From the NCBI GenBank assembly GCA_019096065.1, contig JAGUCH010000001.1:310001-374000 (forward strand): a stretch of DNA of 64,000 nucleotides. The letters run 5' to 3'. The stretch comes from Paracyclopina nana. Lineage: Eukaryota; Arthropoda; Copepoda; Cyclopoida; Cyclopettidae. The position numbers and the translations under genes are program-made. The stretch's first letter is position 1. Each line of letters opens with the position of its first letter. Shown here piece by piece: positions 3,386 through 37,414 of this stretch. The notes below the pieces were generated by a model that searched no databases, was not told the origin of the DNA, and worked only from the letters and a program-made list of their open reading frames with translations.

Positions 3386-6300
3386 ATGGACTCAACATCA
3401 TCATCAGTGGGCAAAATGCTTGGCATTGGCCTTGCAGCTGTGGCTGTCACCTCAGCTGGGGTCGCAGTGACTCAGCACTTTTTGGCCCAGGCAAAATGGA
3501 AGGCTCTCCGGAAAGCCTGGTCAGAGGCTGGCCCGGATGTGGTTGTACTGCACCAATTTCGCCGGCCTCCAAATTCACTGAGTATGTCTCCATTTCCTGC
3601 CAAGCTGGAGACTTTCCTGAGGATGGCCCAAATCAAGTATGTCTGTGACTATGACTGCCCCAGGCACGCCCTCACTGGCAAAAGCCCCTGGATGACCCTG
3701 AATGGCGTGGACTATCCGGATTCCCAACTGTGCCTGGAATTCCTCATGAAAAAGCACAACAAAGACCTTAGGTAGTTATTCTGCAAAAAATATCTGTTTT
3801 TTCAAGAGGGAGAATTCTATTGCTAGGACTCGAACCTCAGGCCTCTTGCATGTGAGCCCTGAGCCTAAATCTTTGCGCCAATGAGATGAATCATTGACTT
3901 TTAGTGCCCGCTCAAGTAAACTTAGACTTGCCTTGGACATCTAGATGAGTAATTTTTTCATTCTTTTTTAGCGCCCATTTGGGACCTAAGGAGAAGAGCA
4001 GCGCGCGCGCGCTCCGCGCGCTCCTCGAAGATCACTTGTACTGGATTCTCATGTTTGACCGCTACGTGGACAATCAGGGCAAGCATTTGACCCAATACTG
4101 GCCCGGAATGAGTGCGCTCGATGTCCGGATGGCAGTTCGAAAAATGAGTCAGCAAGTCTGGCACCAAGGCACTGGGCGCCACAACAAGGTAACTATTTAT
4201 ACCTAAAACATCCAATTTAGAAAAATTCAAACCTTTTGGCAGGGAAAATTAAAATTCAGAATGAAAAATTAGGCAAATTGGTTGTTCGAAAAACGCTCTC
4301 TTGAGTAATTCTTTCGGGTGAGTAATTTAAAATTCGGTGGCAATTCAAAATTCGGGAGAAGCTCAAATTTCGGGAAAAATTCAATTTTCTGGAGGAACTT
4401 TAATTCGGTAGCAATTTAAATTTTGGGAGCAATTCAAATTTCGGGAGCAATTCAAATTTCGGGAGCAGTTCAAATTTCGGGAGCAATTCAAATTTCGGGA
4501 GCAATTCAAATTTCGGGAGCAATTCAAATTTCGGGAGCAATTCAAATTTCGGGAGCAATTCAAATTTCGGGAGCAATTCAAATTTCGGGAGCAATTCAAA
4601 TTTCGGGAGCAATTCAAATTTCGGGAGCAAATCAAATTTCGGGAGCAATTCAAATTTCGGGAGCAATTCAAATTTCGGGTGCAATTCAAATTTCGGGTGC
4701 AATTCAAATTTCGGGAGCAATTCAAATTTCTGGTGTAATTCAAATTTCGGGAGTAACTCAAATTTCTGGTGTAATTCAAATTTCGGGAGTAACTCAAATT
4801 TCGGACGCAATTCAAATTTCGGGAGCAATTCTAATTTCGGGAGAAACTCAAATTTCGGGAGAAACTGGAATTTCGGGAAATTTTTTTCAAAATTGATGCT
4901 TACATGGAAACTTTAACAACGTTGCTGATGTATGTTTCTCTCAAATGTTTTAAAGGGCGATGTGCATCGGATGGGCGTGGAAGATTTGCAGAGTGTGTCC
5001 AACTTTTTGGGTGCCAAGCTCTATTTGATGGGCGGCGAAAATCCCACTGAATTGGACGCTGTCTTGTTTGCATTTATGTCTGTCATCCTCTACACATTCC
5101 CAGAGGACTCTGTCTTCAAAATTGTCATCGAAAAGAGACTGGGAAATCTGCTCCAGCACACCTATATGCGCGGTATATATAACGTTACTGGGACATAGAA
5201 TTGCACACCCGGGCTATTGGGACCCGAATGAACACGATCTATTTTAAGGCCCTTAGGCCTAGAAATTTCAACTTTTTAAATTTTTTTCATAAAATATAGG
5301 CCTTCAGGCCCCTCTGGGCCAAATTTCATAAAAATCCAAGGCCTTCATTTTTTTCATGTTTTATTGGGACATGAGCATGTGCAAATTGCTATTGGGACAT
5401 CAATCCACATGCACTGTTGGGACAAAAATGTGCAAATTGCTATTGGGACATATATGAACATGCACTATTGGGACCAAAATGTGCAAATTGCTAGTGGGAC
5501 ATCAATCCACATGCACTATTGAGACCAACATTATAAAATGCTATTGGGACTGAAATGAACATGCACTATTGTGACTAAAATTAACACTTTGGGCCAGTGG
5601 CCAGTAGACTTTGGGCCAGTAGACTTTGGGCCAGTAGACTTTGGGCCAGTAGACTTTGGGCCAGTAGACTTTGGGCCAGTAGACTTTGGTGCCAGTAGAC
5701 TTTGGGCCAGTAGACTTTGGGCCAGTAGACTTTGGGCCAGTAGACTTTGGGCCAGTAGACTTTGGGCCAGTAGACTTTGGGCCAGTAGACTTTGGGCCAG
5801 TAGACTTTGGGCCAGTAGACTTTGGGCCAGTAGACTTTGGGCCAGTAGACTTTGGGTAAATAAGTTTAAAGTAGGTTAATATCACTGAACTGTGAATTTG
5901 TGTTCTAATAGAAAGAGTGCTTTTCTCCCAATAGAAAGAGTGCTTTTGTCCCAATAAAAAGTGTGCTTTTGTCCCAATAAAAAGGTGTGCTTTTGTCCCA
6001 ATAAAAAGTGTGCTTTTGTCCCAATAAAAAGTGTGCTTTTGTCCCAATAAGAAAAGCTATAGAAATTAAGGAGGAGCCATAAATAGCCAATCATTTAATT
6101 ACCTCAACAAATCCCCACAATATGGGGTAAAACGATTTACTTTGCCTCACACTAGAAGTCAAGCTGCCTCAAATTATCAGCCACCACTGACATTTTGACT
6201 CAAATTTGACCCTATCAAGAATTCCGAGTTTCCTTAGCAGTTTATAAGTAGAATTACGCGATGCGCAAGTTTTCGCTCTTGCAAACCAATCATGAGTCAA

Positions 6301-9300
6301 AAGTTTGACTTTGCCTCACATTTTTGGTCCAATTGCCTCAAATTATCAGTCACTAATGACATTTTGACTCAAAATTGGCCTTATCAGGAATTTCGCGTTT
6401 TCTTAGCAGTACATTAGTAGAATTACGCGATGCGCAAGTTTTCGCTCTTGCAAACCAATGATGAGTCAAAAGTTTGACTTTGCCTCACATATAGAATCCT
6501 TTTGCCTCAAATTATTAGCCACTACTGACATTATGACTCAAAAATGACCCTGACAGGAGTTTCGAGTTTTCGTAGCTGTACACAAGAAGGAATACACGAT
6601 GCGCAAGGTTTAGGACTTGCAAACCAATCATGAGTCAAAAGTTTGACTTTGCCTCACATTTAGAATCCAATTGCCTCAAAATATCAGCCACTACTGACAT
6701 TTTGACTCAAAATTGACCTTATCAGGGATTTCGCGTTTTCTTAGCAGTACATTAGCAGAATTACGCGATGCGCAAGATTTGGCTCTAACAAAATAAGAAT
6801 GTGTCTAAAGTATGATTTTGCCTCACATTTTGAGTAGAATTGCCTCAAAATATCAGCCACTACTGACATGTTGACTCAAAATTGACCTTAACAAGGATTT
6901 CGCGTTTTCTTAGCAGTACATTAGCAGAATTACGCGATGCGCAAGTTTTCGGTCTAGAAAACCAATCATGAGTCAAAAGTTTGACTTTGCCTCACATTTA
7001 GAATCCAATTGCCTCAAAATATCAGCCACTACTGACATTTTGACTCAAAATTGACCTTATCAGGGATTTCGCGTTTTCTTAGCAGTACATTAGCAGAATT
7101 ACGCGATCCGCAAGATTTGGCTCTAACAAAATCAGAATGTGTCAAAAGTATGACTTTGCCTCACATTTTGGGTCCAATTGCCTCAAATTATTAGCCACTA
7201 CTGACATTTGGACTCAAAATTGACCTTATCAGAGATTTCCCGCTTTCTTAGCAGTACATTAGTAGAATTACGCGATGCGCAAGTTTTCGTTCTTGCAAAA
7301 CAATCATGAGTCAAAAGTTTGACTTTGCCTCACATTTAGAATCCTATTGCCTCAAATTATCAGTCACTACTGACATTTTGACTCAAAATTGACATTATCA
7401 GGGATTTCGCGTTTTCTTAGCAGTACATTAGTAGAATTACGTGATGCGCAAGATTTGGCTCTTGCAAACCAATCATGAGTCAAAAGTATGACTTTGCCTC
7501 ACATTTTGGGTCCAATTGCCTCAAATTATCAGCCACAACTGACATTTTGACTCAAAATTGACCTTAACAAGGATTTCGCGTTTTCTTAGCAGTACATTAG
7601 CAGAATTACGCGATGCGCAAGTTTTCGGTCTTGAAAACCAATCATGAGTCAAAAGTTTGACTTTGCCTCACATTTAGAATCCAATTGCCTCAAAATATCA
7701 GCCACTACTGACATTTTGACTCAAAATTGACCTTGCGTTTTCTTAGCAGTACATTAGCAGAATTACGCGATGCGCAAGATTTGGCTCTAACAAAATCAGA
7801 ATGTGTCAAAAGTATGACTTTGCCTCACATTTTGAGTAGAATTGCCTCAAAATATCAGCCACTACTGACATGTTGACTCAAAATTGACCTTAACAAGGAT
7901 TTCGCGTTTTCTTAGCAGTACATTAGCAGAATTACGCGATGCGCAAGTTTTCGGTCTAGAAAACCAATCATGAGTCAAAAGTTTGACTTTGCCTCACATT
8001 TAGAATCCAATTGCCTCAAAATATCAGCCACTACTGACATTTTGACTCAAAATTGACCTTATCAGGGATTTCGCGTTTTCTTAGCAGTACATTAGCAGAA
8101 TTACGCGATCCGCAAGATTTGGCTCTAACAAAATCAGAATGTGTCAAAAGTATGACTTTGCCTCACATTTTGGGTCCAATTGCCTCAAAATATCAGCCAC
8201 TACTGACATTTTCACTCAAAATTGACCTTATCCGGAATTTCTCGTTTTCTTAGCAGCACATTAGTAGAATTACGCGATGCGAAAGATTTGCCTCTAGCAT
8301 AAATCAGAATGTGTCAAAAGTGTGACTTTGCCTCACATTTTGGGTCCAATTGCCTCAAATTATCAGCAACTACTCACATTTTGACTCAAAATTGACCTTA
8401 TCAGGAATTTCGCGTTTTCTTAGCAGCACATTAATGGAATTCCGCGATGCGCAAGTTTTGGCTCTTGCAAACCAATCATGAGTCAAAAGTTAGAATCCTA
8501 TTGCCTCAAACTATCAGCCACAACCAACAGTTTGACTCAAGACCTTTCGTGTTCTCTTATGAGTTACGTGATGTGCAAGCTTTTGCTCTAGTTTTTTTAA
8601 GTTTGAGTTGGTTGCTTGGCCAAGTAGAAAAATGCACACTCTTTGTTGAGACATTCCTTCAAAGAGCCTTTTTGCCTCAAGTGTACTTGACATTATGTTA
8701 AAAGATGGTCCAAAATGGTCCCTGAGTCATAAAATGAGTCATAGATGGTCAAAGTCTTCAATTTGCATCTTTTAGACAAACTTGACTCAAGTACCAGAAA
8801 CATTTCTGAAGTTTGAGTTGCTAGCTTGGACAAGTAGAAAATGCACACTCCTTGTTGGGACATTACTTTGGTTGCTTGGCCAAGTAGGAAATTGCACACT
8901 CTTTGTTGGGACATTCCTTCAAAGAGCCTTTTTGCCTCAAGTAGACTTGACATATTGTTAAAAGGTGGTCCAAAATGGTCCCTGAGTCATAAAATGAGTC
9001 ATAGATGGTCAAAGTCTTCAATTTGCATCATTTAGACAAACTTGACTCATGTACCAGAAACATTTCTGAAGTTTGAGTTGCTAGCTTGGACAAGTAGGAA
9101 AATGCACACCCTTTATTGGGACATTCCTTCAAAGAGCCTTTTTGCCTCAAGTGTACTTGACATTATGTTAAAAGATGGTCCAAAATGGTCCCTGAGTCAT
9201 AAAATGAGTCATAGATGGTCAAAGTCTTCAATTTGAGTCATTTAGGCAAACTTGACTAATGTACCAGAATCATTTCTGAAATTTGAGTAGCTAGCTTGGA

Positions 9301-12300
9301 CAAGTAGGAAAATGCACACTCTTTATTGGGACATTCCTTCAAAGAGCCTTTTTGCCTCAAGTAGACTTGACATATTGTTAAAAGATGGTCCAAAATGGTC
9401 CCTGAGTCATAAAATGAGTCATAGATGGTCAAAGTCTTTAATTTGAGTCATTTAGGCAAACTTGAGTCATGTACCAGAATCATTTCTGAAGTTTGAGTTT
9501 CTAGCTTGGCCAAGTAGAAAAATGCACACTCTTTGTTGGGACATTCCTTCAAAGAGCCTTTTTGCCTCAAGTGTACTTGACATTATGTTAAAAGATGGTC
9601 CAAAATGGTCCCTGAGTCATAAAATGAGTCATAGATGGTCAAAGTCTTTAATTTGAGTCATTTAGGCAAACTTGAGTCATGTACCAGAATCATTTCTGAA
9701 GTTTGAGTTTCTAGCTTGGCCAAGTAGAAAAATGCACACTCTTTGTTGGGACATTCATTCAAAGAGCCTTTTTGCCTCAAGTGTACTTGACATTATGTTA
9801 AAAGATGGTCCAAAATGGTCCCAGAGTCATTAAATGAGTCATAGATGGTCAAAGTCTTCAATTTGAGCTATAGGCAAACTTGACTCAAGTACCAGAATCA
9901 TTTCTGAAGTTTGAGTTTCTAGCCTGGTCAAGTAGAAAAATGCACACTCTTTGTTGGGACATTCCTTCAAAGAGCCTTTTTGCCTCAAGTGTACTTGACA
10001 TTATGTTAAAAGATGGTCCAAAATGGTCCCTGAGTCATAAAATGAGTCATAGATGGTCAAAGTCTTCAATTTGCATCATTTAGACAAACTTGACTCAAGT
10101 ACCAGAAACATTTCTGAAGTTTGAGTTGCTAGCTTGGACAAGTAGAAAATGCACACTCCTTGTTGGGACATTACTTTGGTTGCTTGGCCAAGTAGGAAAT
10201 TGCACACTCTTTGTTGGGACATTCCTTCAAAGAGCCTTTTTGCCTCAAGTAGACTTGACATATTGTTAAAAGGTGGTCCAAAATGGTCCCTGAGTCATAA
10301 AATGAGTCATAGATGGTCAAAGTCTTCAATTTGCATCATTTAGACAAACTTGACTCATGTACCAGAAACATTTCTGAAGTTTGAGTTGCTAGCTTGGACA
10401 AGTAGGAAAATGCACACCCTTTATTGGGACATTCCTTCAAAGAGCCTTTTTGCCTCAAGTGTACTTGACATTATGTTAAAAGATGGTCCAAAATGGTCCC
10501 TGAGTCATAAAATGAGTCAAAGATGGTCAAAGTCTTCAATTTGAGTCATTTAGGCAAACTTGACTAATGTACCAGAATCATTTCTGAAATTTGAGTAGCT
10601 AGCTTGGACAAGTAGAAAAATGCACACTCTTTATTGGGACATTCCTTCAAAGAGCCTTTTTGCCTCGAGTGGACTTGACATAATGTTAAAAGATGGTCCA
10701 AAATGGTCCCAGAGTCATTAAATGAGTCATAGATGGTCAAAGTCTTCAATTTGAGCTATAGGCAAACTTGACTCAAGTACCAGAATCATTTCTGAAGTTT
10801 GAGTTTCTAGCCTGGTCAAGTAGAAAAATGCACACTCTTTGTTGGGACATTCCTTCAAAGAGCCTTTTTGCCTCAAGTGTACTTGACATTATGTTAAAAG
10901 ATGGTCCAAAATGGTCCCTGAGTCATAAAATGAGTCATAGATGGTCAAAGTCTTCAATTTGAGTCATTTAGGCAAACTTGACTAATGTACCAGAATCATT
11001 TCTGAAATTTGAGTAGCTAGCTTGGACAAGTAGAAAAATGCACACTCTTTATTGGGACATTCCTTCAAAGAGCCTTTTTGCCTCGAGTGGACTTGACATA
11101 ATGTTAAAAGATGGTCCAAAATGGTCCCAGAGTCATTAAATGAGTCATAGATGGTCAAAGTCTTCAATTTGAGCTATAGGCAAACTTGACTCAAGTACCA
11201 GAATCATTTCTGAAGTTTGAGTTTCTAGCCTGGTCAAGTAGAAAAATGCACACTCTTTGTTGAGACATTCTTTCAAAGAGCCTTTTTGCCTCAAGTAGAC
11301 TTGACATTATGTTAAAAGATGGTCCAAAATGGTCCCTGAGTCATAAAATGAGTCATAGATGGTCAAAGTCTTCAATTTGCATCATTTAGACAAACTTGAC
11401 TCATGTACCAGAAACATTTCTGAAGTTTGAGTTGCTAGCTTGGACAAGTAGGAAAATGCACACCCTTTATTGGGACATTCCTTCAAAGAGCCTTTTTGCC
11501 TCAAGTGTACTTGACATTATGTTAAAAGATGGTCCAAAATGGTCCCTGAGTCATAAAATGAGTCAAAGATGGTCAAAGTCTTCAATTTGAGTCATTTAGG
11601 CAAACTTGACTAATGTACCAGAATCATTTCTGAAATTTGAGTAGCTAGCTTGGACAAGTAGAAAAATGCACACTCTTTATTGGGACATTCCTTCAAAGAG
11701 CCTTTTTGCCTCGAGTGGACTTGACATAATGTTAAAAGATGGTCCAAAATGGTCCCAGAGTCATTAAATGAGTCATAGATGGTCAAAGTCTTCAATTTGA
11801 GCTATAGGCAAACTTGACTCAAGTACCAGAATCATTTCTGAAGTTTGAGTTTCTAGCCTGGTCAAGTAGAAAAATGCACACTCTTTGTTGAGACATTCTT
11901 TCAAAGAGCCTTTTTGCCTGAAGTAGACTTGACATATTGTTAAAAGATGGTCCAAAATGGTCCCTGAGTCATAAAATGAGTCATAGATGGTCAAAGTCTT
12001 TAATTTGAGTCATTTAGGCAAACTTGAGTCATGTACCAGAATCATTTCTGAAGTTTGAGTTTCTAGCTTGGCCAAGTAGAAAAATGCACACTCTTTGTTG
12101 GGACATTCATTCAAAGAGCCTTTTTGCCTCAAGTGTACTTGACATTATGTTAAAAGATGGTCCAAAATGGTCCCAGAGTCATTAAATGAGTCATAGATGG
12201 TCAAAGTCTTCAATTTGAGCTATAGGCAAACTTGACTCAAGTACCAGAATCATTTCTGAAGTTTGAGTTTCTAGCCTGGTCAAGTAGAAAAATGCACACT

Positions 12301-13872
12301 CTTTGTTGGGACATTCCTTCAAAGAGCCTTTTTGCCTCAAGTGTACTTGACATTATGTTAAAAGATGGTCCAAAATGGTCCCTGAGTCATAAAATGAGTC
12401 ATAGATGGTCAAAGTCTTCAATTTGCATCATTTAGACAAACTTGACTCATGTACCAGAAACATTTCTGAAGTTTGAGTTGCTAGCTTGGACAAGTAGGAA
12501 AATGCACACCCTTTATTGGGACATTCCTTCAAAGAGCCTTTTTGCCTCAAGTGTACTTGACATTATGTTAAAAGATGGTCCAAAATGGTCCCTGAGTCAT
12601 AAAATGAGTCATAGATGGTCAAAGTCTTTAATTTGAGTCATTTAGGCAAACTTGACTCAAGTACCAGAAACATTTCTAGCTTGGCCAAGTAGAAAAATGC
12701 ACACTCTTTGTTGGGACATTCCTTCAAAAAGCCTTTTTGCCTCAAGTGGACTTGACATTATGTTCAAAGATAATCCAAAATGGTCCCTTAGTCAAAAAAT
12801 GAGTCACAAAAAGTTACTGAGCATAATTTGTGTCAGTTCTGCTATGTCCGCTGTATGGCTTGAGTAACTTGTTCAAGGCAAATAATGCACACTCCTTGTT
12901 GGGACATTTTAAAAATTCCAGTTATTCTAAAGCTTCAAGACTTTTTAATTAATAAACCTATGTTTTAGTGAGCTTATTTGTCCCTTTTTATCCTTAATAC
13001 TTAATTTGACTTAATTTCATGAGTCTACATTAAGTCCTAATAATTCATGTTTATTTTCAAAAATGCACATGCTTTATTGGGACAAATGCACACGTTTTAT
13101 TGGGAAAGGTTGCGTGATAATCAAAAATTAAAAATAGAGCATGTGCATTTTTTGCAATTTTCATGACACTATTGGGACATTTTAGTTTTAGGTTTAAATT
13201 AATCAGGGGGGTCCAAATAACCAGAAAAACACGTTTTTAGAAAATGTCCCAATAGCCCGTCCCAATAGCCCAAGATCGCATTTTTTATGTAGCGCTATTA
13301 GGACGCCATGTCCCAGTAACCGTCATATGAGGAACACCAAGAGGATCAAGGCCAAATTCTACCCAGACTGGGAGCAAATTGTGGGCAACGCCTCCATGTC
13401 CAGCGTCCAGGATTTCCCGGAATTCCCTGATGAAGAAGTCAAGAGCAAACCGGTTAGCTCTCCAGCTGCTAAACCTAAAAATTCACCTGCCAAGCCCAAA
13501 CTACCACCAATAGCTAAAGAGCCTTTGAAAAAGCCAGCTGAACCGGTTGTTGCATCAGCTGAAAATAATGAGAAAGCAGCTGACTTGGGTAAACCGGCTG
13601 AGACATCAGCTGTCAATGGACAAACTACTACTGGTAAACTGGAAAATGACAACAAACAGCTGCAACCTGTTAATCCTGTTGGGCAAACTGTCAACAGTTC
13701 AGTGGCGCCACCTGTGGCAAAACCTGGCATAAGTGGGAAGCCTACCGTAAGTCAAGTAGCGCCACCTCAGCCAAAAGTGGGCGGAGCTTCAAACACTTTT
13801 GGGCCACAGAAGCCAAACAGCAGCAGTTTCAATGCACAAGCTCAGAAGAAGCTCAAAGCACTCTTTAAATGA
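3386..13872 (+). CDS. fax: failed axon connections (FAX) homologue, interrupted by an 8.2-kb satellite block
   Basis: Exons are 3386..3771, 3972..4188 and 4956..5168, with the rest of the protein at 13330..13872. Introns 1 and 2 are GT-AG with correct phase. Joined at ATG|AGG, the reading frame gives 452 residues. Residues 10-34 are a hydrophobic N-terminal anchor. Residues about 53-128 are a thioredoxin/GST-N-like fold with the family signature around SPFPAKLETFLRMAQIKY. Residues 130-280 are GST-C-like (HLYWILMFDRYVDN, QQVWHQGTGRH, the segment ending FYPDW). The tail is low-complexity Pro/Lys/Ala. FAX proteins act in axon development and resemble metaxins. The third gap is odd: an 8,156-bp block lies inside conserved coding sequence and no GT-AG pair at its edges keeps the frame (see mobile element 5169-13324). 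The allele may be broken, or the block may be removed unusually. Confidence 0.78.
3820..3892 (-). tRNA. tRNA-like sequence, probably a degenerate tRNA or SINE head
   Basis: The minus strand carries a perfect B-box (GGTTCGAGTCC) and, about 45 bases before it, an A-box-like TTGGCGCAAAGATTTAGGC. The acceptor and anticodon stems do not pair convincingly. It lies in fax intron 1 in antisense orientation. A functional tRNA is unlikely; a tRNA-derived repeat fits better. Confidence 0.35.
4400..4880. repeat. 18-bp tandem array in fax intron 2
   Basis: About 25 copies of an 18-bp unit (CAAATTTCGGGAGCAATT) with point variants near the right end (TCTGGTGTAATT, GGGAGTAACT). The unit is a multiple of 3 and stop-free in several frames, so it yields long spurious reading frames on both strands. 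Confidence 0.95.
5205..5585. repeat. left subterminal TTGGGAC motif cluster
   Basis: About nine spaced copies of TATTGGGACAT and variants (TGTTGGGAC, TAGTGGGAC), alternating with the phrases gtgcaaattgc and catgcacta. The core equals the inner part of the terminal inverted repeat (ACTGGGACAT), a pattern typical of subterminal transposase-binding sites. Confidence 0.7.
5590..5858. repeat. 15-bp tandem array
   Basis: About 18 copies of GGGCCAGTAGACTTT with almost no divergence. One copy near 5687 has a single inserted T that shifts the apparent reading frame. Near-identity suggests recent expansion. Confidence 0.95.
5905..6058. repeat. 23-bp tandem array carrying GTCCCAATA
   Basis: About seven copies of a 23-bp unit (GTCCCAATAAAAAGTGTGC plus four T). 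GTCCCAATA is the reverse complement of the subterminal TATTGGGAC motif, so this array is an inverted cluster of the same signal. Confidence 0.9.
6120..8570. repeat. about 170-bp satellite array
   Basis: About 14 copies of a unit near 170 bp, recognised by recurring TTTGCCTCACATTT, GCCACTACTGACATTTTGA, TTCGCGTTTTCTTAGCAGT and GAATTACGCGATGCGCAAG. A higher-order period near 1 kb is visible: the variant with GAATGTGTCAAAAGTATGA and TTTTGAGTAGAATTGCC occurs near 6800 and again near 7800. No genes. Confidence 0.93.
8600..12870. repeat. about 210-bp satellite array
   Basis: About 20 copies of a 210-bp unit containing TTGGGACATTCCTTCAAAG, AAAATGGTCCCTGAGTCAT and GGTCAAAGTCTTCAATTTG. Higher-order duplications are clear: the stretch 8841-9236 recurs at 10149-10544, and the variant unit at 10564-10749 recurs at 10982-11167 and 11610-11795. 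Each unit holds one TTGGGACATT, again the terminal motif. Because 210 is divisible by three, each unit leaves the same roughly 64-residue open frame; this is not coding evidence. Confidence 0.94.
13060..13324. repeat. right subterminal TTGGGAC/GTCCCAA cluster
   Basis: TTATTGGGACAAATGC, TTTATTGGGAAAG, CTATTGGGACATTTTAG and then inverted copies (GTCCCAATAGCCCGTCCCAATAGCCC) precede the right terminal repeat. The left side has the matching GGGCTATTGGGACCC, which supports a single element with paired ends. Confidence 0.7.
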
Positions 13873-26700: not shown

Positions 26701-29700
26701 TGCTGAGTCAAAATCAAAATGCTGAGTCAAACTCAAAATGCTGAGTCAAACTCAAAATGCTGAGTCAAACTCAAAATGCTGAGTCAAACTCGGAATACTG
26801 AGTAGAACTCTGAATACTGAGCACAACTCTGAACACTGCGGAGAACTCTCAATATTGAGTAAACTTTTGAAAACTGAGCATCACTCTGAAATCTGAGTAG
26901 AACTCTGAATACTGAGCACAACTCTGTTGAAAACTGAGTGTCACTCTGAATACTGAGCACAACTCTGTTGAAAACTGAGTATCACTCTGAATACTGAGCA
27001 CAACTCTGTTGAAAACTGAGTATCACTCTGAATACTGAGCACATCTCTGTTGAAAACTGAGTATCACTCTGAATACTGAGCACAACTCTGTTGAAAACTG
27101 AGTATCACTCTGAATACTGAGCACAACTCTGAAAACTATGTAGAACTCTGAGCACTGCGTAGAACGGTCAGTACTGAGTAAACTTTTGAATACTGAGCAT
27201 CACTCTGAAATCTAAGGATAACTCTGAAAACTGCGTATAACTCTTAATACTGAGCACAACTCTGAAAACTCAGTAGAAGTCTCAATACTGAGCTCTCATT
27301 ACTTATCAAACTTTTCAAAACTGAGCATTACTCGGAATGCTAAGTAGGACTTAAAACCTACTTGCAATTAGCAAAACAATAGAAGAAGTCTAAACATTGT
27401 AGATCTTCCTGAGCGCCCCGCGCTGAATGCATGGAAACTGGCGAAAACGTAGAGCAGAGTAAAAAAGCAGCGACTTGATGCCCATAGGGGACCTCCTAAA
27501 AGGCACACAATGCCCACAATTTGGCACACACAGCCCACACTACACACACGGCACACACATGGCACACAATTACTAAAAGGCACACACAAGTCTAAAACTC
27601 ATACTTAGGGATGGAAATTCACCGTTTTTTTGTTGGTTCCCAAAATTAAGCCTGTTTTCCAGTTCTCAAGTCCAAAACTCATACTTAGAGAAGAAAATTC
27701 ACCGTTTTTTTGTTGGTTCCCAAAATTAAGCCTGTTTTCCAGTTCTCACACAAAAAAACTGAGATGCTGAGTCATCTTTCGCCCAGTCTCAGCACTTTTT
27801 CAAATTTCCAGCTGCTTTAGTTATTCCATCCCTTCTATTAGAGCTTGGCACACACAGCACACAATTTGGCACACACGGCACACACAAGTCCAAAACTCAT
27901 ACTTAGAGAAGAAAATTCACCGTTTTTTTGTTGGTTCCCAAAATTAAGCCTGTTTTCCAGAGATGCTGAGTCATCTTTCGCCCAGTCTCAGCACTTTTTC
28001 AAATTTCCAGTTACTTTAGTGAAAGAATCTAATCTATTAGAGCTTGGCACACACAGCACACAATTTGGCACACACGGCACACAATTTGGCACACACGGCA
28101 CACACAAGTCCAAAACTCATACTTAGAGAAGAAAATTCACCGTTTTTTTGTTGGTTCCCAAAATTAAGCCTGTTTTCCAGTTCTCACACAAAAAAACTGA
28201 GATGCTGAGTCATCTTTCGCCCAGTCTCAGCACTTTTTCAAATTTCCAGCTGCTTTAGTTATTCCATCCCTTCTATTAGAGCTTGGCACACACAGCACAC
28301 AATTTGGCACACACGGCACACACAAGTCCAAAACTCATACTTAGAGAAGAAAATTCACCGTTTTTTTGTTGGTTCCCAAAATTAAGCCTGTTTTCCAGAG
28401 ATGCTGAGTCATCTTTCGCCCAGTCTCAGCACTTTTTCAAATTTCCAGTTACTTTAGTGAAAGAATCTAATCTATTAGAGCTTGGCACACACAGCACACA
28501 ATTTGGCACACACGGCACACAATTTGGCACACACGGCACACACAAGTCCAAAACTCATACTTAGAGAAGAAAATTCACCGTTTTTTTGTTGGTTCCCAAA
28601 ATTAAGCCTGTTTTCCAGTTCTCACACAAAAAAACTGAGATGCTGAGTCATCTTTCGCCCAGTCTCAGCACTTTTTCAAATTTCCAGCTGCTTTAGTTAT
28701 TCCATCCCTTCTATTAGAGCTTGGCACACACAGCACACAATTTGGCACACACGGCACACACAAGTCCAAAACGCATACTTAGAGAAGGAAATTCGCCGTT
28801 TATTTGTTGGTTCCCAAAATTAAGCCTGTTTTCCAGTTCTCACACAAAAAACTGAGATGCTGAGTCATCTTTCGCCCAGTCTCAGCACTTTTTCAAATTT
28901 CCAGTTACTTTAGTGAAAGAATCTAATATATTAGAGCTTGGCACACACAGCACACAATTTGGCACACACGGCACACACAAGTCCAAAACGCATACTTAGA
29001 GAAGGAAATTCTCCGTTTTTTTGTTGGTTCCCAAAATTAAGCCTGTTTTCCAGTTCTCACACAAAAACTTGACTTGCTGAGTCATCTTTCGCCCAGTCTC
29101 AGCACTTTTTCAAATTTCCAGTTACTTTAGTGGAAGAATCTAATCTATTAGAGCTTGGCACACACAGCACACAATTTGGCACACACGGCACACAATTTGG
29201 CACACACGGCACACACAAGTCCAAAATGCATACTTAGAGAAGGAAATTCACCGTTTTTTTGATGGTTTCCAAAATTAAGCCTGTTTTCCAGTTCTCACAC
29301 AAAAAACTGAGTCATCTTTCGCCCAGTCTCAGCACTTTTTCAAATTTCCAGTTACTTTAGTGGAAGAATCTAATCTATTAGAGCTTGGCACACACAGCAC
29401 ACAATTTGGCACACACGGCACACACAAGTCTAAAAAGCATACTTAGAGAAGGAAATTCACCGTTTTTTTGATGGTTCCCATAGGGGCGTGACTAAATTGG
29501 GCAAGCAAGGGCAAGCAGAGGCAAGCAAGGGCAAGCAAGGGCAATCAAGGGCAAGCAAGGGCAAGCAAGGGCAAGCAGGGGCAAGCAAAGTGGCCAAGGA
29601 GGAATGCTTGTCAAATTAGCCTTTCATTAGTACTATCGCGTAACACAGATAACTTGACCCTGGGGCAAGCAGACACTTGGGCTGACTTTTGACCCAAATT

Positions 29701-32700
29701 GCTCTGTCAGTCGTCTGAGACAAAGCCAAAGAAGGTTCTGAAGGTTGAAAAGGCCAGCCTTAGCATTGGATTTGAAAAAGTGCTGAGACTGGGCGAAAGA
29801 TGACTCAGCATCTCAGTTTTTTGTGTGAGAACTGGAAAACAGGCTTAATTTTGGGAGCCAACAAAAAAACGGAGAATTTCCTTCTCTAAGTATGCGTTTA
29901 AGACTTGTGTGTGCCGTGTGTGCCAAATTGTGTGCTGTGTGTGCCAAGCTCTAATAGAACGGATGGAATAACTAAAGCAGCTGGAAATTTGAAAAAGTGC
30001 TGAGACTGGGAGAAAGGTGACTCAGCATCTCAGTTTTTTGTGTGAGAACTGGAAAACAGGCTTAATTTTGGGAGCCAACAAAAAAACGGAGAATTTCCTT
30101 CTCTAAGTATGCGTTTAAGACTTGTGTGTGCCGTGTGTGCCAAATTGTGTGCTGTGTGTGCCAAATTGTGAGCTGTGTGTGCCAAGCTCAAATAGATTAG
30201 ATTCTTCCACTAAAGTAACGGGAAATTTGAAAAAGTGCTGAGACTGGGCGAAAGATGACTCAGCATCGCAGTTTTTTGTGTGAGAACTGGAAAACAGGCT
30301 TAATTTTGGGAACCAACAAAAAAACGGAGAATTTCCTTCTCTAAGTATGCATTTTGGACTTGTGTGTGCCGTGTGTGCCAAATTGTGTGCTGTGTGTGCC
30401 AAGCTCTAATAGAACGGATGGAATAACTAAAGCAGCTGGAAATTTGAAAAAGTGCTGAGACTGGGAGAAAGGTGACTCAGCATCTCAGTTTTTTGTGTGA
30501 GAACTGGAAAACAGGCTTAATTTTGGGAACCAACAAAAAAACGGTGAATTTCCATCCCTAAGTATGAGTTTTAGACTTGTGTGTGCCGTGTGTGCCAAAT
30601 TGTGTGCCGTGTGTGCCAAATTGTGTGCTGTGTGTGCCAAGCTCTAATATATTAGATTCTTCCACTAAAGTAACTGGAAATTTGAAAAAGTGCTGAGACT
30701 GGGCGAAAGATGACTCAGCAAGTCAAGTTTTTGTGTGAGAACTGGAAAACAGGCTTAATTTTGGGAACCAACAAAAAAACGGAGAATTTCCTTCTCTAAG
30801 TATGCATTTTGGACTTGTGTGTGCCGTGTGTGCCAAATTGTGTGCTGTGTGTGCCAAGCTCTAATAGAACGGATGGAATAACTAAAGCAGCTGGAAATTT
30901 GAAAAAGTGCTGAGACTGGGAGAAAGGTGACTCAGCATCTCAGTTTTTTGTGTGAGAACTGGAAAACAGGCTTAATTTTGGGAACCAACAAAAAAACGGT
31001 GAATTTCCATCCCTAAGTATGAGTTTTAGACTTGTGTGTGCCGTGTGTGCCAAATTGTGTGCCGTGTGTGCCAAATTGTGTGCTGTGTGTGCCAAGCTCT
31101 AATATATTAGATTCTTCCACTAAAGTAACTGGAAATTTGAAAAAGTGCTGAGACTGGGCGAAAGATGACTCAGCAAGTCAAGTTTTTGTGTGAGAACTGG
31201 AAAACAGGCTTAATTTTGGGAACCAACAAAAAAACGGAGAATTTCCTTCTCTAAGTATGCATTTTGGACTTGTGTGTGCCGTGTGTGCCAAATTGTGTGC
31301 TGTGTGTGCCAAGCTCTAATAGAACGGATGGAATAACTAAAGCAGCTGGAAATTTGAAAAAGTGCTGAGACTGGGAGAAAGGTGACTCAGCATCTCAGTT
31401 TTTTGTGTGAGAACTGGAAAACAGGCTTAATTTTGGGAACCAACAAAAAAACGGTGAATTTCCATCCCTAAGTATGAGTTTTAGACTTGTGTGTGCCGTG
31501 TGTGCCAAATTGTGTGCCGTGTGTGCCAAATTGTGTGCTGTGTGTGCCAAGCTCTAATATATTAGATTCTTCCACTAAAGTAACTGGAAATTTGAAAAAG
31601 TGCTGAGACTGGGCGAAAGATGACTCAGCAAGTCAAGTTTTTGTGTGAGAACTGGAAAACAGGCTTAATTTTGGGAACCATCAAAAAAACGGTGAATTTC
31701 CTTCTCTAAGTATGCGTTTTGGACTTGTGTGTGCCGTGTGTGCCAAATTGTGTGCCGTGTGTGCCAAGCTCTAATAGATTAGATTATTCCACTAAAGTAA
31801 CTGGAAATTTGAAAAAGTGCTGAGACTGGGCGAAAGATGACTCAGCATCTCAGTTTTTTGTGTGAGAACTGGAAAACAGGCTTAATTTTGGGAACCAACA
31901 AAAAAACGGTGAATTTCCATCCCTAAGTATGAGTTTTAGACTTGTGTGTGCCTTTTAGTAATTGTGTGCCATGTGTGTGCCGTGTGTGTAGTGTGGGCCG
32001 TGTGGGCCAAATTGTGGGTATTGTGTGCCTTTTAGTACGTGCGGCCCATAGAGCATTTGCCCCCATTGTCAAAGTGGGATGGGGGCAAAATCCGTGTGGG
32101 TTTTGATAAATGATACCTTGGACCTACTGGCAAAGAATTCGCGATGAGTAGAGGAGCTAGTCACTCCACTACTAACGCGACGTGACATTGCGACTACTAC
32201 ATAATGCCCCGTTCATCTACTTAAAATGCTCATCATAAATAAAAATAAAAAAGTATCGCTTTTGCAACTTTGAACAAATGCAAATTCTATGCTTTTTTCT
32301 ACTAATAATATTATTGGTTGCATTGAAAAAGTTTTTTTCAAAATAGTCCATTTGTAGTGGAATAGCGGCAAAAAGGACAAATTTAATTGAAGTTTTCCCC
32401 CCCAAAAAAAGTTATTCTGACAAAGATTTTTTAAGTTTGATTTTTTTTCTTTAAAAAAAGTTTTTTAAGCTAGATTTTTTAAATGAAGTTTTCCCCCCCA
32501 AGAAAAAAGTATTCTGACAAAGTTTTTTTAAGTTTGATTTTTTTCTTTAAAACAAGTTTTTTTAAGCTAGATTTTTAAATTGAAGTTTTCCCCCCAAAAA
32601 AAGTTATTCTGGCAAAGTTTTTTAAGTTTGATTTATTTCTTTTAAAAAAGATTTTCTTCATTAAAAATTTAAAATGGGTTTTAGTTTATTTTTAAAAAAT

Positions 32701-35700
32701 AAGGTTTTTCTTGAAGATAATAGAGTTTTCACCTTTGTAGATGAACACCTCATAAAGTGACTTTAATTTGAGGATCAACCTACATCCAAATTAAAACCAC
32801 AACAACGCCAAAAAAAAGAGAGTTGCTTATTTAAAAGCCAATTCCAGGATTAATTTTGAGTTAATTGTTTGTGAAAATGCATTGCCCCATCTAAAAATGC
32901 GCAATCTCAGTATGCAAATGTGCATTCAAGTACGTTTTTTCGCCTCTCAAGATTTCCCACAATGATATGAGAAATGTGGCAGAAATGCCAGAAAAATGTC
33001 AGTTTATGAACGCTGGTGAGAGACTTGAGGTGCCAAAAATGATGAAAAGATTATGCCCATTTTTTGTACTAATGGCCTTTTTTAGTGCACACTTTTCACT
33101 ATAGGTGGCGCTCTCAGTATCACAGTTTATTTCACCAAAGCTGGCTAAAGCGCCACCTATACTCGATTTTGGAAACTATCTTTTTTTCATGTAACTTTTT
33201 TTTAATTACATATCTGGTAGCCTTGATACTGGTTAAGAGTCAATTTTTGGCTTCTGTAGTCATAATTTCAAAAATCAGCCCAAAATTTTTTGGTTCAAAA
33301 AACTAAACTTTTAGCTCAAAAAATAACTTTTTTTTTTTTTGGGAGCAAACAAAAAACTTTACATTTTGCCAAAAAGACTTGATTTTTAGCTTTTAGCTTC
33401 TTTAAAAACTTATTTTAAGCTTCTGAAAACATTATTAATTTTTTAGCTTCTTAAAACTTATATTTAAGCTTCAATAAGAACTTATTTTTTTAGCTTCTAA
33501 AAACTTAATTTTCAAATTCTAAAACTCCATAGATTTCTTATCAAGAATTTAAAATTCAATAACTAAACTCAATTCAAATATTTTCATTTTTGACATAAAC
33601 AGCTTATATTTCAGCTTTTAAAAACTTAAGATTAAATAATTTGAGTTGTTGGCCCCTAAAACACTAAATTTATAACCTTAAGATTCCTTAAATTCTTCTA
33701 AAAACACTACTAAGTCCATTCAAGAAATTTCATGCTAAAAATTAGCTTATAAACAAACTATTGCATGAAAGACTAAAGAAACCCAAGTAGAATTTAAATA
33801 TCATAATTATGCAATAAGAATAATGAAAGTTTAAGAGCTGATAGGAAGGTTTTCAAATTGAGTTGTGCCAAGATTAGGCTTTATTAGACATTTAGGGTTG
33901 ATAAGTAGGACTGAATCACGCACACTGATCTAAGTGATCTAGATCTAGATCAGCAAGCCTTTTAATGAAGATAAACCTTTTACTTTATGGTCTCCCCTTG
34001 ATATGTGAGAGATGCTTGTTTTAATTAAGGCTGCCTCTCAGCCCCACATTTGAGATAAGCAATAATTAGGCATGCCATTTAGCAGGAAATGGGCTGCAAA
34101 AAGTTACACACATTTTCTGCTGGAATGTCTTAATTGGTCACACATTTGGCTCCCTTATTTTGGAGACAGAGAGAGAAAAAAAGAGAAAATGCCACTTCTA
34201 AATTAGAGCATTCTTCAGTAAATTGTGAATCACGTACTCACCCTCAGCTTTACTTTTTTGCCAAGCAGCAAAAAAGTAAAGCCAAGTCAAGCACAAACAA
34301 ATCCCTTCTATTCACAAGACTTTGCATGAATTTGCCTTTTCAAACACATTTTCTGGTAGCTCTGCTTTCCTGAAGGCATTATCCAAAAGAGAAGCACTCA
34401 AGGCAGATGAGTCCTTTCCATGTAATACATCACTTTCAATTTCAAGTCATTTTTCTATTTTATCAATATTGTTCCTTTTTGGGAGAAAATAGGATGCTAT
34501 TTTGGGCTTTTGATAATAACTCTGGTTTCCTGAAGGCGTTATCCAAAAGAGAACCATTCATAGTGATTGAATCCTTTTCAAGTAATGCTTCAACTTCTAT
34601 TTTTAAAGTATTTTTTTGAGTTGTCCATCTTTAATGGAGAAAGTCAGCTACTCTGGCAACTCTGGTTTGTTGAAGGCGTTATCCAAAAGAGAACCACTCA
34701 TAGTGATTGAATAATTTTCAAGAAATGCTTCAACTTCTATTTTTTAGAAAGTATTTTTTAACTAGTCCATCTTTAATGGAAAAAGTCAACTATTCTGGCA
34801 ACTCTGGTTTGTTGAAGGCGTTATCCAAAAGAGAACCATTCATAGTGATTAAATCCTTTTCAAGTAATGCTTCAACTTTTATTTTTTAGAAAGTATTTTT
34901 TAACTAGTCCATCTTTAATTGAATAAACTAAACTATTCTGGCAACTCTGGTTTGTAGAAGGCGTTATCCAAAAAGGATGCAGTGTAATTAGATGGTTCCT
35001 GTTTGGCTAGGGCAACTCTGGAGCTCAATTTCATTTTCTGGCAACTCTGACACATAAAAAGGTGCTATCCAGAAAGGAGCCTCTGCAATTAGACTGCTCT
35101 AGCTTGGCTAGTGCACATGCTATACTATATTTTGATGAGTGCCCATCACAAACTCATTTTGTGGTTTCTTGATGCATAGCTTTACACAGATAGGCTTTAT
35201 TTACAGATAGCAGCATTCCTGAGGCTCAACAAAAAAAGGCATGATTATTGTTTGGCTATGCTTTTGTGGCCAAGGGGGAAAAAAGGGACTGAAACATCAT
35301 AATGAAGGATGGCATTGTAGTACACCACTATAGAATGATGATGTACAACTACTTGAATGCATAATTTTTCACCACATTACTACTATATTCTTTTTCTGGC
35401 CTTGAGCAACCCAATTGGATTGAAATCTTCACTATTTTCCAGATTGGCTCACACCCCTTTCAATGGCTGTGTCTTGCCTAGTCTCACCACTCATAGTTGG
35501 CATTTGTCGAAGAAAATCCACCAGATTGACAGCTGTGTTGGGTGGACTTGTCATTGCACTGGGCTGCTTATTTACCTCATTTGCCAGCCAATTTCACCAG
35601 CTCTACCTCAGCTATGGCCTCACAATAGGTGACCAATTCAACACTGAATGGCTTCCTTCCAATTTTCTCGAGTGCCAGCCATCTTTTCAGGAATTGGAGT

Positions 35701-37414
35701 GGCCTTGACCAAAGATCCAGCCACCCTGATGGTGGGCCAATATTTCAAGAGGAAACGAAACGCCATGGAGATCATCCTGGTGGCCAGCAATGGACTTGGC
35801 CTTAGCGCAATGTCAGCCTTCATTTTGATTTCAATAAGGTAATGCTGTCGATACTTATTATTAATTAATTAACGTTGCTGTCAACAGCTCGATTGGCTGG
35901 AGGCTGGGCCTGGCATCGGTGGCTGGAGTGGTATCGATCCTATTTGTATTGGGTACTTTCTATCGGTCAGCCTCGCTGTACCACCCCCAGAGAAGGGCCA
36001 TCCTTCATCTCAAGAGTCAGAAGAGGAAAATTAAGAGCAAAGATAAAGAGAAGAACAAGGCTCATGATGATACGCCACCCTTATTTGACATCACCACATT
36101 AAAGAGTAGGACTGTGCAAATTATGCTGGCCTCCACAACCGTTGCTGCGCTTGGCCTCAACACTCCATTGCTCTTCATGGTAATTTGATGCAAAATAGAC
36201 TACTTTGTATTTTTTAATGCCATTTCTGGCCAACAACTGCACAGGCACAACAAGCTCATCAGGATGGCATTCGAGGCAAGTCCTTCTTGTGGCTGCAGGC
36301 GTATCTGGGTCTGGGATGGGCACTCGGCTGCATTTTCTTTGGATGTCTTTGCGTACATACCTCACATGAGTGTCGCATCTCAAAGCAATATTTGTGCCAA
36401 GCGGCTCTCTTTTTGTGTGGAATCACCATAATGGCATTCACTGCCGTTGAGGGATACAAAGGATATGTGGTTTTTGTCTGGGCTTATGGAATCTTCCTGG
36501 GCGGCTACCAGTACACGTTAAAGATGTACATCTATGAAAAGGTCAGGGCAAGAAACTTTGCTAGGGCCTGGGGATTTGCTCAATCCTCCATGTCGATACC
36601 AACTCTGATCAGCATTCCATTACTTAGTAAGCCCTGTAACCCATTCGCATGGATTTCACATCATGGTTGTTGTTGTTTTTTGTTTGCAGATAGTTTGAAG
36701 CCTGAGCCTGGCAGCAGGGGTAGCTATGCTCTCAGTGCGACATTTGTGATCCTTGCTAGCCTTGTTATGGCCATGATTGATGCCCACAAGAAAAGTATGA
36801 AAAAGAGACGCAAGAATTGTAGGCAAATGAGGATGCAGCAACAGCAGATGATGGATCATCGATCATCCACTTTTGCACCCGATGACCCAACCAACAGCAG
36901 CAGCATTAGCCAACTGCAGGACTGCCCACCACACCCTTCAAAGATTTCAGATTTGGTGCGACAATACTCATTTTCTGACCAGGATGACATTCTGCCTCCA
37001 GTCTCGCTGCTCAGCCACCAAAGATCATTCATCTATGACGACTGTGTCGACATTAATCCGGATGAGTTGAGCATTTACTCCGAAGAGGGCATTGATGACA
37101 TGGACATGCCCAACGACATCCTGTTTAACGACCTGGACTTTTTGGACAACATCACCTCGTGCAACAAGGTGGAGAATTGCCTCATGCTCAGCGAATATGA
37201 GCAGAATTTGATCAAGGAGACGGAAGGTCCAATGGGGTTGACTGGTGGCAATCGAAGGGCCCGCAAGTGGTCACTGTTTCGACAGCCAACCCTGCAAACC
37301 ATCCACTCAGTGTCTGAGGACACTGTTTCAGATGAAAAAGCTTTATTCAATGGCAGTGGAGGAAGAAGCATCACTGCAGTCATAGAGGAGCACAGTTGCA
37401 GCAGCAATGCCTAG
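14702..37414 (+). CDS. SLC16-type monocarboxylate transporter A, complete
   Basis: Six exons: 14702..15086, 35443..35628, 35691..35838, 35888..36179, 36245..36626 and 36690..37414. All junctions are GT-AG with matching phases (1,1,2,0,1), giving 705 residues. The family motif of TM1 is at residues 84-90 (PEGGWGY) and the TM5 motif follows residue 205 (GQYFKRKRNAMEI, then GLGLSAMSAF). About 12 membrane segments span residues 88-495, and a 200-residue cytosolic tail carries an acidic SFSDQDD block near 558 and SCNKVENCLML near 621. The family carries lactate-like monocarboxylates or related solutes with protons across the plasma membrane; the substrate here is unknown. Intron 1 is 20.4 kb and repeat-rich, while the others are 49-65 bp. 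A convergent paralogue lies at 53.7-56.1 kb. Confidence 0.9.
15090..15410. repeat. short tandem duplication in transporter A intron 1
   Basis: Three to four diverged copies of a unit near 75-100 bp with TTTTGCCCAGG.TTGCTTTTCACAAATT and a GAAAGCTGGTTTAAAAA phrase. It begins right at the splice donor of exon 1 and seems to include copied exon-edge sequence (GAGACAGG). Confidence 0.65.
15411..18788. other. intron 1 of transporter A, no feature seen
   Basis: AT-rich intron sequence with many homopolymer runs. Open frames here are short, lack splice support and show no family motif. Confidence 0.6.
18789..18907. mobile_element. palindromic MITE, family 1, copy 1
   Basis: A roughly 118-bp foldback: GTGGCTTTTATAGAGC on the left and GCCATGATTTG on the right, with the inner arms GTTAACTGAAAAAGGAAC and GTTCCTTTTTGAAGTAACGC around a short loop. 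Three further copies lie in this window (21219, 39124 and 39515). Confidence 0.8.
18908..20190. other. intron sequence with scattered GTGGCGCTAC motifs
   Basis: AT-rich intron. AGTGGCGCTACT-like phrases recur at about 18709, 19040 and 19080, and an inverted GCTACCAGACGGG lies at 19336. No gene or clean element was seen. Confidence 0.4.
20191..20700. repeat. diverged array with CATCTGGTAGCACTTTT
   Basis: About seven copies of (A/G)TCTGGTAGCACTTTT spaced 60-100 bases, joined by AAATATTTGTC and AAGTGCCACTAACCAC phrases. The last copy is inverted (GTGCTACCAGATGCAC). Single copies of CATCTGGTAGC also occur near 26150 and 33220. Confidence 0.7.
20701..21218. other. intron sequence with a GC-rich patch
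   Basis: The stretch near 20987-21020 (GGGGGCGGGCGCGCGAAG and AGCGCGCCCCACC) is sharply GC-rich inside AT-rich DNA. No coding support. Confidence 0.4.
21219..21337. mobile_element. palindromic MITE, family 1, copy 2
   Basis: Left end AAATCGTGGCTTTTGAG and right end reading AAATCATGGCTTAATGAG on the other strand. The inner arms are GTTAACTGAAAAAGGAAC and GTTCCTTTTTGAGGTAACGC. It is about 119 bp, the same size as copy 1. Confidence 0.82.
22105..22440. repeat. three diverged copies of a GTCAGCTGACGCCC unit
   Basis: GTCAGCTGACGCCC occurs near 22107 and 22270, and GTCAGCTGATGCCC near 22422. The phrases ATACAAAAGCAGTTTTTGAA and AAATAAATATTTAGTAAAA recur between them. No gene seen. Confidence 0.6.
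22441..23589. other. intron sequence with small duplications
   Basis: The phrase AAATTGCCAAAGGTCAATTTT is directly duplicated near 23035 and 23080. A stretch near 23160-23240 is an inverted relative of the array at 32390-32670 (CTTTGCCAGAATAACTTTT). Nothing coding was seen. Confidence 0.45.
23590..23659 (-). tRNA. tRNA-like sequence or tRNA pseudogene (Glu-like)
   Basis: The minus strand reads a 70-base cloverleaf-like sequence. Acceptor GATCTGG pairs with TCAAGTC at 6 of 7 positions including wobbles, the D-arm is GCGT/GTGC with A-box TGGCGTAGTGG, and the T-arm has the perfect B-box GGTTCGAATCC. The anticodon region (CCTTTCACTC) looks like a tRNA-Glu TTC loop, but the anticodon stem does not pair. 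It lies antisense in transporter A intron 1. Confidence 0.45.
24151..24331. mobile_element. 181-bp near-perfect palindrome (foldback MITE)
   Basis: The arms begin CTGACAAAAATGTCAATACTG on the left strand and, read inward from the right, CTGACAGGAAAAATGT, then CAATACTGTCC. Both continue through GACTCGTCCATATAGGG-type sequence to GGGTTTTTCGCTCAT. The centre is a smaller hairpin, GATCACTCGTGGC-TTCG-CCACACGGTGATC. Arms are about 80 bases with few mismatches. Confidence 0.88.
24571..24685. mobile_element. MITE-like element with GCACAGTGGA ends, copy 1
   Basis: GCACAGTGGATTATTTT on the left and TCCACTGTGC on the right, about 115 bp apart in inverted orientation. It shares its terminal sequence with the element at 24863-25004. 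Confidence 0.55.
24863..25004. mobile_element. MITE-like element with GCACAGTGGATTATT ends, copy 2
   Basis: Left end GCACAGTGGATTATTCTGCC and right end, inverted, GCACAGTGGATTATTTCGCC: about 18 of 20 bases match. A lone copy of the same end (GGCGAAATAATCCACTGTGG) is at 23300-23319. Confidence 0.7.
25005..26225. other. intron sequence, nothing specific seen
   Basis: AT-rich intron with a weakly duplicated phrase (GGCGGAAATCAGAATGTTCATGC near 25282 and GGTGGAAATCAGTGTGTCC near 25720) that suggests an old duplication of about 440 bp. No gene. Confidence 0.4.
26226..27360. repeat. CTGAGT tandem arrays (19-bp and about 44-bp units)
   Basis: 26480-26795 has about 17 copies of the 19-bp unit GAGTCAAACTCAAAATGCT, nearly identical. 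26900-27130 has about five copies of a longer unit (GTTGAAAACTGAGTATCACTC, then TGAATACTGAGCACAACTCT). The flanks are diverged ACTCTGAATACTGAGC repeats, as if the arrays grew out of one older repeat. Confidence 0.93.
27480..32051. mobile_element. 4.56-kb giant foldback element with 8-bp direct repeats
   Basis: The direct repeat GCCCATAG (27480-27487 and 32044-32051) flanks an inverted repeat whose ends read CTAAAAGGCACACAATGCCC on the left and CTAAAAGGCACACAATACCC from the right. Each arm is a tandem array of a unit near 220 bp with TTGGCACACACGGCACAC, TTCACCGTTTTTTTGTTGG, AAGCCTGTTTTCCAG and GCTGAGTCATCTTTCGCCC. The left arm (27488-29478) runs on the plus strand and the right arm (29770-32043) on the minus strand. 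Dimer periods differ (438 bp left, about 460 bp right), so the arms expanded independently. An 8-bp duplication is what hAT- or P-type transposition leaves. No transposase frame was seen. It lies in transporter A intron 1. Confidence 0.8.
29479..29769. repeat. spacer of the giant foldback, with 10-bp GGCAAGCAAG array
   Basis: The spacer opens with CCCATAGGGGCGTGACTA, where AGGGGCGTGACTA resembles the CAGGGGCGT-type termini common in hAT elements. About nine copies of GGGCAAGCAA follow (29500-29590), and then unique sequence until the inverted arm starts. It could be the remnant of the original element core. Confidence 0.6.
32052..32389. other. intron sequence right of the foldback
   Basis: Mostly unique sequence with no gene. 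TGGACCTACTGGCAAAGAATTC and CTACTAACGCGACGTGACATTG are the only GC-balanced patches. Confidence 0.35.
32390..32670. repeat. about 95-bp tandem array, three copies
   Basis: Three copies of a unit with GAAGTTTTCCCCCC, AAAAAAGTTATTCTGACAAAG and TTTTTTAAGTTTGATTT. An inverted relative lies near 23160-23240. Confidence 0.8.
33101..33166. repeat. short inverted repeat ATAGGTGGCGCT
   Basis: ATAGGTGGCGCT and its partner AGCGCCACCTAT stand 35 bases apart. It may be a small MITE remnant or a transcribed hairpin. Confidence 0.5.
33300..33640. repeat. diverged TTTAGCTTCTAAAAACTTA repeats
   Basis: About eight loosely spaced copies of TTAGCTTCTAAAAACTTAT, 25-45 bases apart, in an AT-rich region. Old array. 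Confidence 0.6.
34355..35110. repeat. about 142-bp tandem array, six copies
   Basis: Units start CAACTCTGGTTTGTTGAAGG and contain CGTTATCCAAAAGAGAACC and AATGCTTCAACTTCTATTTT. Copies begin near 34368, 34517, 34659, 34798, 34941 and 35042. Outer copies are more diverged. It ends about 330 bp before exon 2 of transporter A. Confidence 0.85.

Follow-up and report, generated by a model that had tools for sequence, protein, structure and literature searches.

A satellite-filled block with inverted ends, probably a DNA transposon, inside the coding sequence of a fax-type gene in Paracyclopina nana

What is an 8.2-kb block of satellite DNA doing inside a conserved coding sequence, and can it be spliced out? 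The question is raised by a fax-type gene on the plus strand of a 64,000-nt stretch of the Paracyclopina nana genome (assembly GCA_019096065.1, contig JAGUCH010000001.1, positions 310,001 to 374,000), hereafter the window, in whose own coordinates all positions are given. The joined product of the gene matched the Pfam domains GST_N_4 (83 bits) and GST_C_6 (56.7 bits), and it is from these two matches together with background knowledge that we take the gene to be animal and of the fax type. Its native frame reaches the codons CAC ACC at 5162, picks up again at AAG 13339 and ends with a stop at 13872. A preliminary description of the window had reported a satellite-filled block bounded by terminal inverted repeats that splits the fax coding segment, and this view held up, with 13-bp inverted cores, six tandem arrays and fax-like flanks.

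We think it fairly probable that the block is a non-autonomous DNA transposon that inserted into a fax exon and has inverted ends and inner motifs expanded into satellites. It would then be a clear case of a mobile element, with no coding capacity found, bringing several satellite arrays into a coding exon.

Ends and interior of the block

The insert measures 8,171 bp, or 8,176 bp when one copy of the flanking pentamer ACACC is counted. Its ends share an exact 13-bp inverted repeat, GTTACTGGGACAT at 5184-5196 and the complement at 13308-13320, each occurring once in the window. This core provides the inverted repeats at both ends by which a DNA transposon is recognised. When random pairs of 50-bp segments were taken outside the block, 126 out of 100,000 had an exact inverted 13-mer in common. 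The exact 13-mer is better evidence than the gapped similarity of the two ends, which is weak alone. A 16-mer of the inverted end also matched 10 viral contigs, and these were taken as chance matches in a large collection.

Tandem Repeats Finder recovered six tandem arrays in the block, with units of 51, 15, 23, 169, about 210 and again 23 bp. A motif related to the ends, TTRTTGGGACAT, was found 36 times with at most one mismatch allowed; all 36 occurrences lie within 5185-13319, and 0.98 were expected. The motif recurs in the arrays of 51, 23 and 210 bp; the 169-bp array lacks it. The arm 5996-6050 is 82 % complementary to 13051-13105, and the longest inverted pair in the block, among the 25 longest of 249 pairs, is 56 nt at 79 %. 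Regarding coding capacity, none of the seven open reading frames (ORFs) of at least 80 amino acids lying wholly in the block reached the Pfam cut-off; weak matches below it were to DUF5721 (0.028) and Extensin_1 (0.0082). The missing transposase gene is what is expected for a non-autonomous element. Rfam at the gathering threshold gave no matches and the tRNA search found none. The coordinates of the gene and of the block are summarised in Table 1.

Table 1. Features of the fax-type gene and of the inserted block, in window coordinates.
Feature	Start	End	Strand	Basis
fax exon 1	3386	3771	+	Open frame; GT-AG junction 3772/3971; GST_N_4 in joined product
fax exon 2	3972	4188	+	GT-AG junctions
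fax exon 3, native coding sequence to CAC ACC (H T)	4956	5162	+	GST_C_6 in joined product; homologue alignments
Left ACACC, proposed target site duplication	5158	5162	+	Repeat scan; homology-fixed offset
Putative inserted element of 8,171 bp, transposase not found	5163	13333		Flanks, tandem arrays, repeats
Left ATATG, duplication of the preliminary description, now assigned to element end	5164	5168	+	Repeat scan
Left inverted-repeat core GTTACTGGGACAT; opening two bases are a weak phase-0 GT	5184	5196	+	Exact match
First in-frame stop (TAG) with block kept; predicted 281-aa product	5196	5198	+	Open frame
51-bp tandem array with TATTGGGACAT-like motifs	5377	5581	+	Tandem Repeats Finder, motif scan
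15-bp tandem array	5599	5856	+	Tandem Repeats Finder
23-bp tandem array, motif on minus strand	5907	6050	+	Tandem Repeats Finder, motif scan
169-bp satellite array, motif-free	6139	8491	+	Tandem Repeats Finder, motif scan
~210/418-bp satellite array (260-bp variants), motif repeated	8608	12806	+	Tandem Repeats Finder, motif scan
Short 23-bp array, inverted relative to 5907-6050	13046	13107	+	Tandem Repeats Finder, inverted-pair scan
Right inverted-repeat core (ATGTCCCAGTAAC on plus strand)	13308	13320	-	Complement of left core
Right ATATG, duplication of the preliminary description, within palindrome CATATG	13325	13329	+	Repeat scan
Right ACACC copy	13334	13338	+	Repeat scan; homology-fixed offset
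Remaining fax coding frame (KRIKAKFYPDW ... ALFK, stop)	13339	13872	+	Open frame; tail start matches homologues

The gene also carries a tandem array outside the block, 31 copies of an 18-bp unit at 4320-4878 in intron 2.

The native junction

Direct repeats of 5 bp are found twice around the block, ATATG (5164/13325) and, just outside it, ACACC (5158/13334). By arithmetic, chance should yield about 1.3 five-mer matches over the scanned 36 x 37 grid, so that neither repeat is informative by itself. For a repeat of at least 5 bp within 15 bp at the offset fixed by homology, P = 0.013, for the one copy only. The ATATG repeats had been proposed as the target duplication. They are present as described, and removal of the block with one copy restores the fax frame, but the empty site built on ACACC restores it as well, and the ATATG version retains the residues YMRNT in the protein.

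Homology favoured the version free of YMRNT. In Smith-Waterman alignments against 36 prokaryotic relatives it scored better in 31, equal in five and worse in none, and with tblastn it scored higher in 29 of the 31 relatives scored and equal in the other two. A profile built from 31 homologues gave 150.9 bits to the ACACC empty site, 141.0 to the ATATG version and 138.9 to read-through; with a profile of 85 relatives, mostly of a shorter subfamily, the two versions scored 75.3 (ACACC) and 71.5 (ATATG). The tails of the prokaryotic relatives, e.g. NLVDYCQRMTSKYYPEF and NLVAYVDRLMLQYYPDF, resemble NLLQHT-KRIKAKFYPDW. The alignment is gap-free over four residues on either side of HT|KR in 28 of the 36 relatives, and a YYP-like tail was found in 23 of them. 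The native site is most likely NLLQHT|KRIKAKFYPDW, with ACACC and not ATATG as the target duplication. ATATG would then belong to the ends of the element, where its right copy lies inside the palindrome CATATG, and the block boundaries drawn earlier at ATATG were probably misplaced. From these alignments the empty site is more likely to read CAGCACACCAAGAGG than TATATGAGG, as previously suggested. A palindrome at the end of an element can, it seems, imitate a target duplication.

The 36 loci comprise the 30 locus-bearing ones among 41 listed matches, combined with those of an earlier search; tblastn gave scores for 31 of them, the number that entered the 31-homologue profile. The larger profile was drawn from 87 loci, seven from plasmids and 80 genomic, of which one (L007) was omitted and another was lost to the length limit. 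The genomic loci are the best 80 of 268 relatives found with the alignment query, after a first fax scan of genome contigs had found no relatives, and the plasmid loci come from seven of 11 plasmid records. Both the 85 relatives and the plasmid set belong mostly to the shorter subfamily, in which the alignments stop near HT, and the 85 share five loci with the 36. No fax relatives were confirmed in viral contigs.

As to how the block arose, the element would have inserted between the T and K codons of NLLQHT|KRIKAKFYPDW and duplicated ACACC. Its inverted ends, with the core GTTACTGGGACAT, would be recessed, and several of the inner tandem arrays would reiterate the motif of the ends. By analogy with other families, movement may have relied on a transposase supplied in trans and binding a motif of the TTGGGACA type, and the arrays may have grown by unequal exchange or slippage. 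The insertion would be recent, because the downstream fax frame is still open: it runs without a stop from 13198 to the stop at 13872. An open frame at this place points to a recent insertion or else to some splicing.

With the block left in the transcript, the product is predicted to be truncated at residue 281. Both GST domain matches would be kept, and the YPDW segment and the low-complexity tail would be lost. Signals of the AATAAA type are located at 5953-6023, downstream of the TAG at 5196-5198. The insertion is probably an ordinary though oversized one that cuts the protein short.

Splicing and other explanations

Several observations weigh against an insertion of this kind. The 5-bp duplication is close to chance unless the homology argument is added, and that argument draws on prokaryotic homologues, so that YMRNT may be a native feature of this lineage. 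The inverted core is recessed unequally, lying 21 bp in on the left and 13 bp in on the right, and the gapped end-to-end alignment scored 30, a value equalled or exceeded by a few of 280 random pairs (95 % value 25, top values 30 to 45). Within the 64 kb there is a single copy of the element ends, no empty allele and no family. The open downstream frame fits a functional intron equally well, and the splice sites of the pair 5184/13207 sum to 8.7 bits, inside the range of 0.7-16.2 covered by the ten introns delimited in the window.

All ten of these introns read as GT-AG; two belong to fax, and two inverted MFS-like gene copies contribute four each. The borders of all ten were placed by eye, from the frame and the paralogue alignment and with GT-AG in mind, which makes the ten out of ten partly circular; with the same reservation, nothing in them points to unusual splicing in the host. 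Splice scores were taken from a leave-one-out matrix of the ten introns, an in-sample matrix of eight introns having been set aside as it flattered the real sites.

We combined the 12 GT sites in 4990-5259 with the 22 AG sites in 13100-13419, which yielded 93 phase-matched pairs, 69 of them open. None of the 69 rebuilt the native protein, as removal of an ordinary ancestral intron by a GT-AG pair should. The top open pair scored 144.3, below the 150.9 of the empty site, and loses conserved sequence; the best pair retaining NLLQHT, 5184/13342, reached 139.8 with a very poor AG context (-7.3). The pair 5166/13336, read as AT-AC, scored 146.2; it was rejected as its donor starts ATGCGC, unlike the U12-type. 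The U12-type AT-AC donor is ATATCC.

The preliminary description had argued that the AG sites inside the right end are in the wrong phase for the available donor. This is correct for CCCAG, TTAG and GTAG, whose exons at 13293, 13302 and 13317 would be in phase 2. Other AGs, however, define exon starts in phase 1 (13241, 13256) and phase 0 (13192, 13207, 13225, 13342), and the GT at 5184 is in phase 0, so that in-frame GT-AG pairs exist, e.g. 5184/13207 and 5173/13241. The splicing argument was incomplete because these pairs were overlooked. The insertion is real, and the splicing puzzle was overstated. Splicing as a weak GT-AG intron might rescue some longer protein.

It is possible, though on the unlikely side, that the element acts as a new GT-AG intron, running from the GT at 5184 or 5173 to an exon at 13207 or 13241 and lengthening the stretch from the GST domain to the tail by 51 (13207) or 36 (13241) residues. 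Besides the summed score of 5184/13207 and the 69 open pairs out of 93, the right end speaks for it, being open in the fax frame for 47 codons from 13198 and carrying stops in the other two frames, a stretch whose length is biased as 13198 was picked as the frame's own start. Codon-adding Introners have also been described (PMC9860276). Chance alone, however, predicts in-frame pairs. The left GT sites score 1.5 (5184) and -1.0 (5173), below all ten donors of the window (lowest 2.3), and the products of 5184/13207 (136.7) and 5173/13241 (136.9) are no better than read-through at 138.9. The length of 8.2 kb also contrasts with the medians of 30-654 nt given for Introner families (PMC9860276).

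We regard as doubtful the more specific idea of a giant introner-like unit, in which the inverted core would open with a 5′ splice site (GTTACTGGG) and the right end would supply an AG in an open frame. If it were true, insertions of an 8-kb satellite-filled element could turn into introns that add an element-derived peptide, and if the block is spliced, introner-like intron gain would extend to a length that exceeds the known family medians more than tenfold.

An artefact, either repeat-rich reads misjoined into fax during assembly or a block present on one haplotype only, appears improbable. Long tandem arrays are generally prone to misassembly, but here both junctions fall at a 5-bp repeat that matches the native junction placed by homology, and the ends share an inverted core. 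A misjoin is not expected to give such junctions, whereas a real heterozygous insertion would be.

Very improbable is a precise non-canonical removal at the ends, e.g. by the GC-AG pair 5156/13332, whose product has the native length, carries a single H to N change and scores second (147.0) to the ACACC empty site, and for which the larvacean Fritillaria borealis, with mostly non-canonical introns (PMC13326754), offers a precedent: this pair is the best of 136 open GT-AG, GC-AG and AT-AC pairs, and among that many a good fit is to be expected; the residue turned into N is Y in 25, H in six and F in one of the 36 homologues (four unaligned there); the six cuts possible inside the ACACC repeat are AC-GA, CA-AA, AC-AC, CC-CA, CT-AC and TA-CC; and the ten delimited introns are GT-AG. 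Of the two outcomes offered earlier, a disrupted allele or non-canonical removal, disruption is thus the likelier, and we found no positive evidence for the other.

Elsewhere in the window, one satellite with a 217/438-455-bp unit occupies 27667-29480 and 29770-31952 in opposite orientations, flanking a short 10-bp array. Its inverted arms (27667-31952) extend up to 591 nt at 95 %, and the structure is foldback-like and apparently lies within a large intron. The two MFS-like transporter gene copies at 35436-37414 (+) and 56115-53754 (-) are in opposite orientation, with MFS_1 matches below the cut-off; their aligned pieces are 74-85 % identical and their introns are at matching places. We presume them to be monocarboxylate-transporter-like. 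At 48445-50326, a 127-bp unit is repeated 14.9 times at 96 % and starts with apparent coding sequence (PLCYFAIKPKALSTS), so this array may be an exon end amplified as a satellite. The minus strand carries a C2H2 zinc-finger gene at 1338-2762, with six fingers matched in one open frame, and several long ORFs at 60452-63989, of which the seven searched against Pfam all stayed below the cut-off.

Comparison with known systems

Removal without GT-AG would find its model in the introns of Fritillaria borealis, but in that species 95 % of introns are described as lying outside the GT/AG rule (PMC13326754), unlike the ten of our window. Introners come closer, as some families have inverted ends and duplications of 3-9 bp and some add codons to the transcript; the known families are, however, multi-copy introns with medians of 30-654 nt (PMC9860276), whereas the fax block is a single 8.2-kb copy in the window. 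The 13-kb CACTA element TgmR of the soybean R locus is likewise a very large DNA transposon within a gene and has subterminal repeats, but it sits in an existing intron (PMC4219821), and the fax block interrupts coding sequence. Galileo, of the P-element superfamily, resembles the block in its internally repetitive ends and structural dynamism, and differs in its long inverted repeats and known transposase (PMC3573991), neither of which was found in the fax block.

The closest description found is that of Tetris, a non-autonomous foldback-type transposon that gave rise to satellite arrays in Drosophila virilis (PMC4079207). As described there, Tetris carries its repeats inside the terminal inverted repeats and makes duplications of 8-10 bp; the fax block has an exact core of 13 bp and a proposed duplication of 5 bp, and none of its large arrays is an inverted copy of another. 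Among the 25 longest of the block's 249 inverted pairs, we saw no long inverted repeats with a repetitive interior of the foldback kind. What the two have in common are inverted ends, internal tandem repeats of about 220 bp in Tetris, no apparent coding capacity, and arrays able to become satellite DNA.

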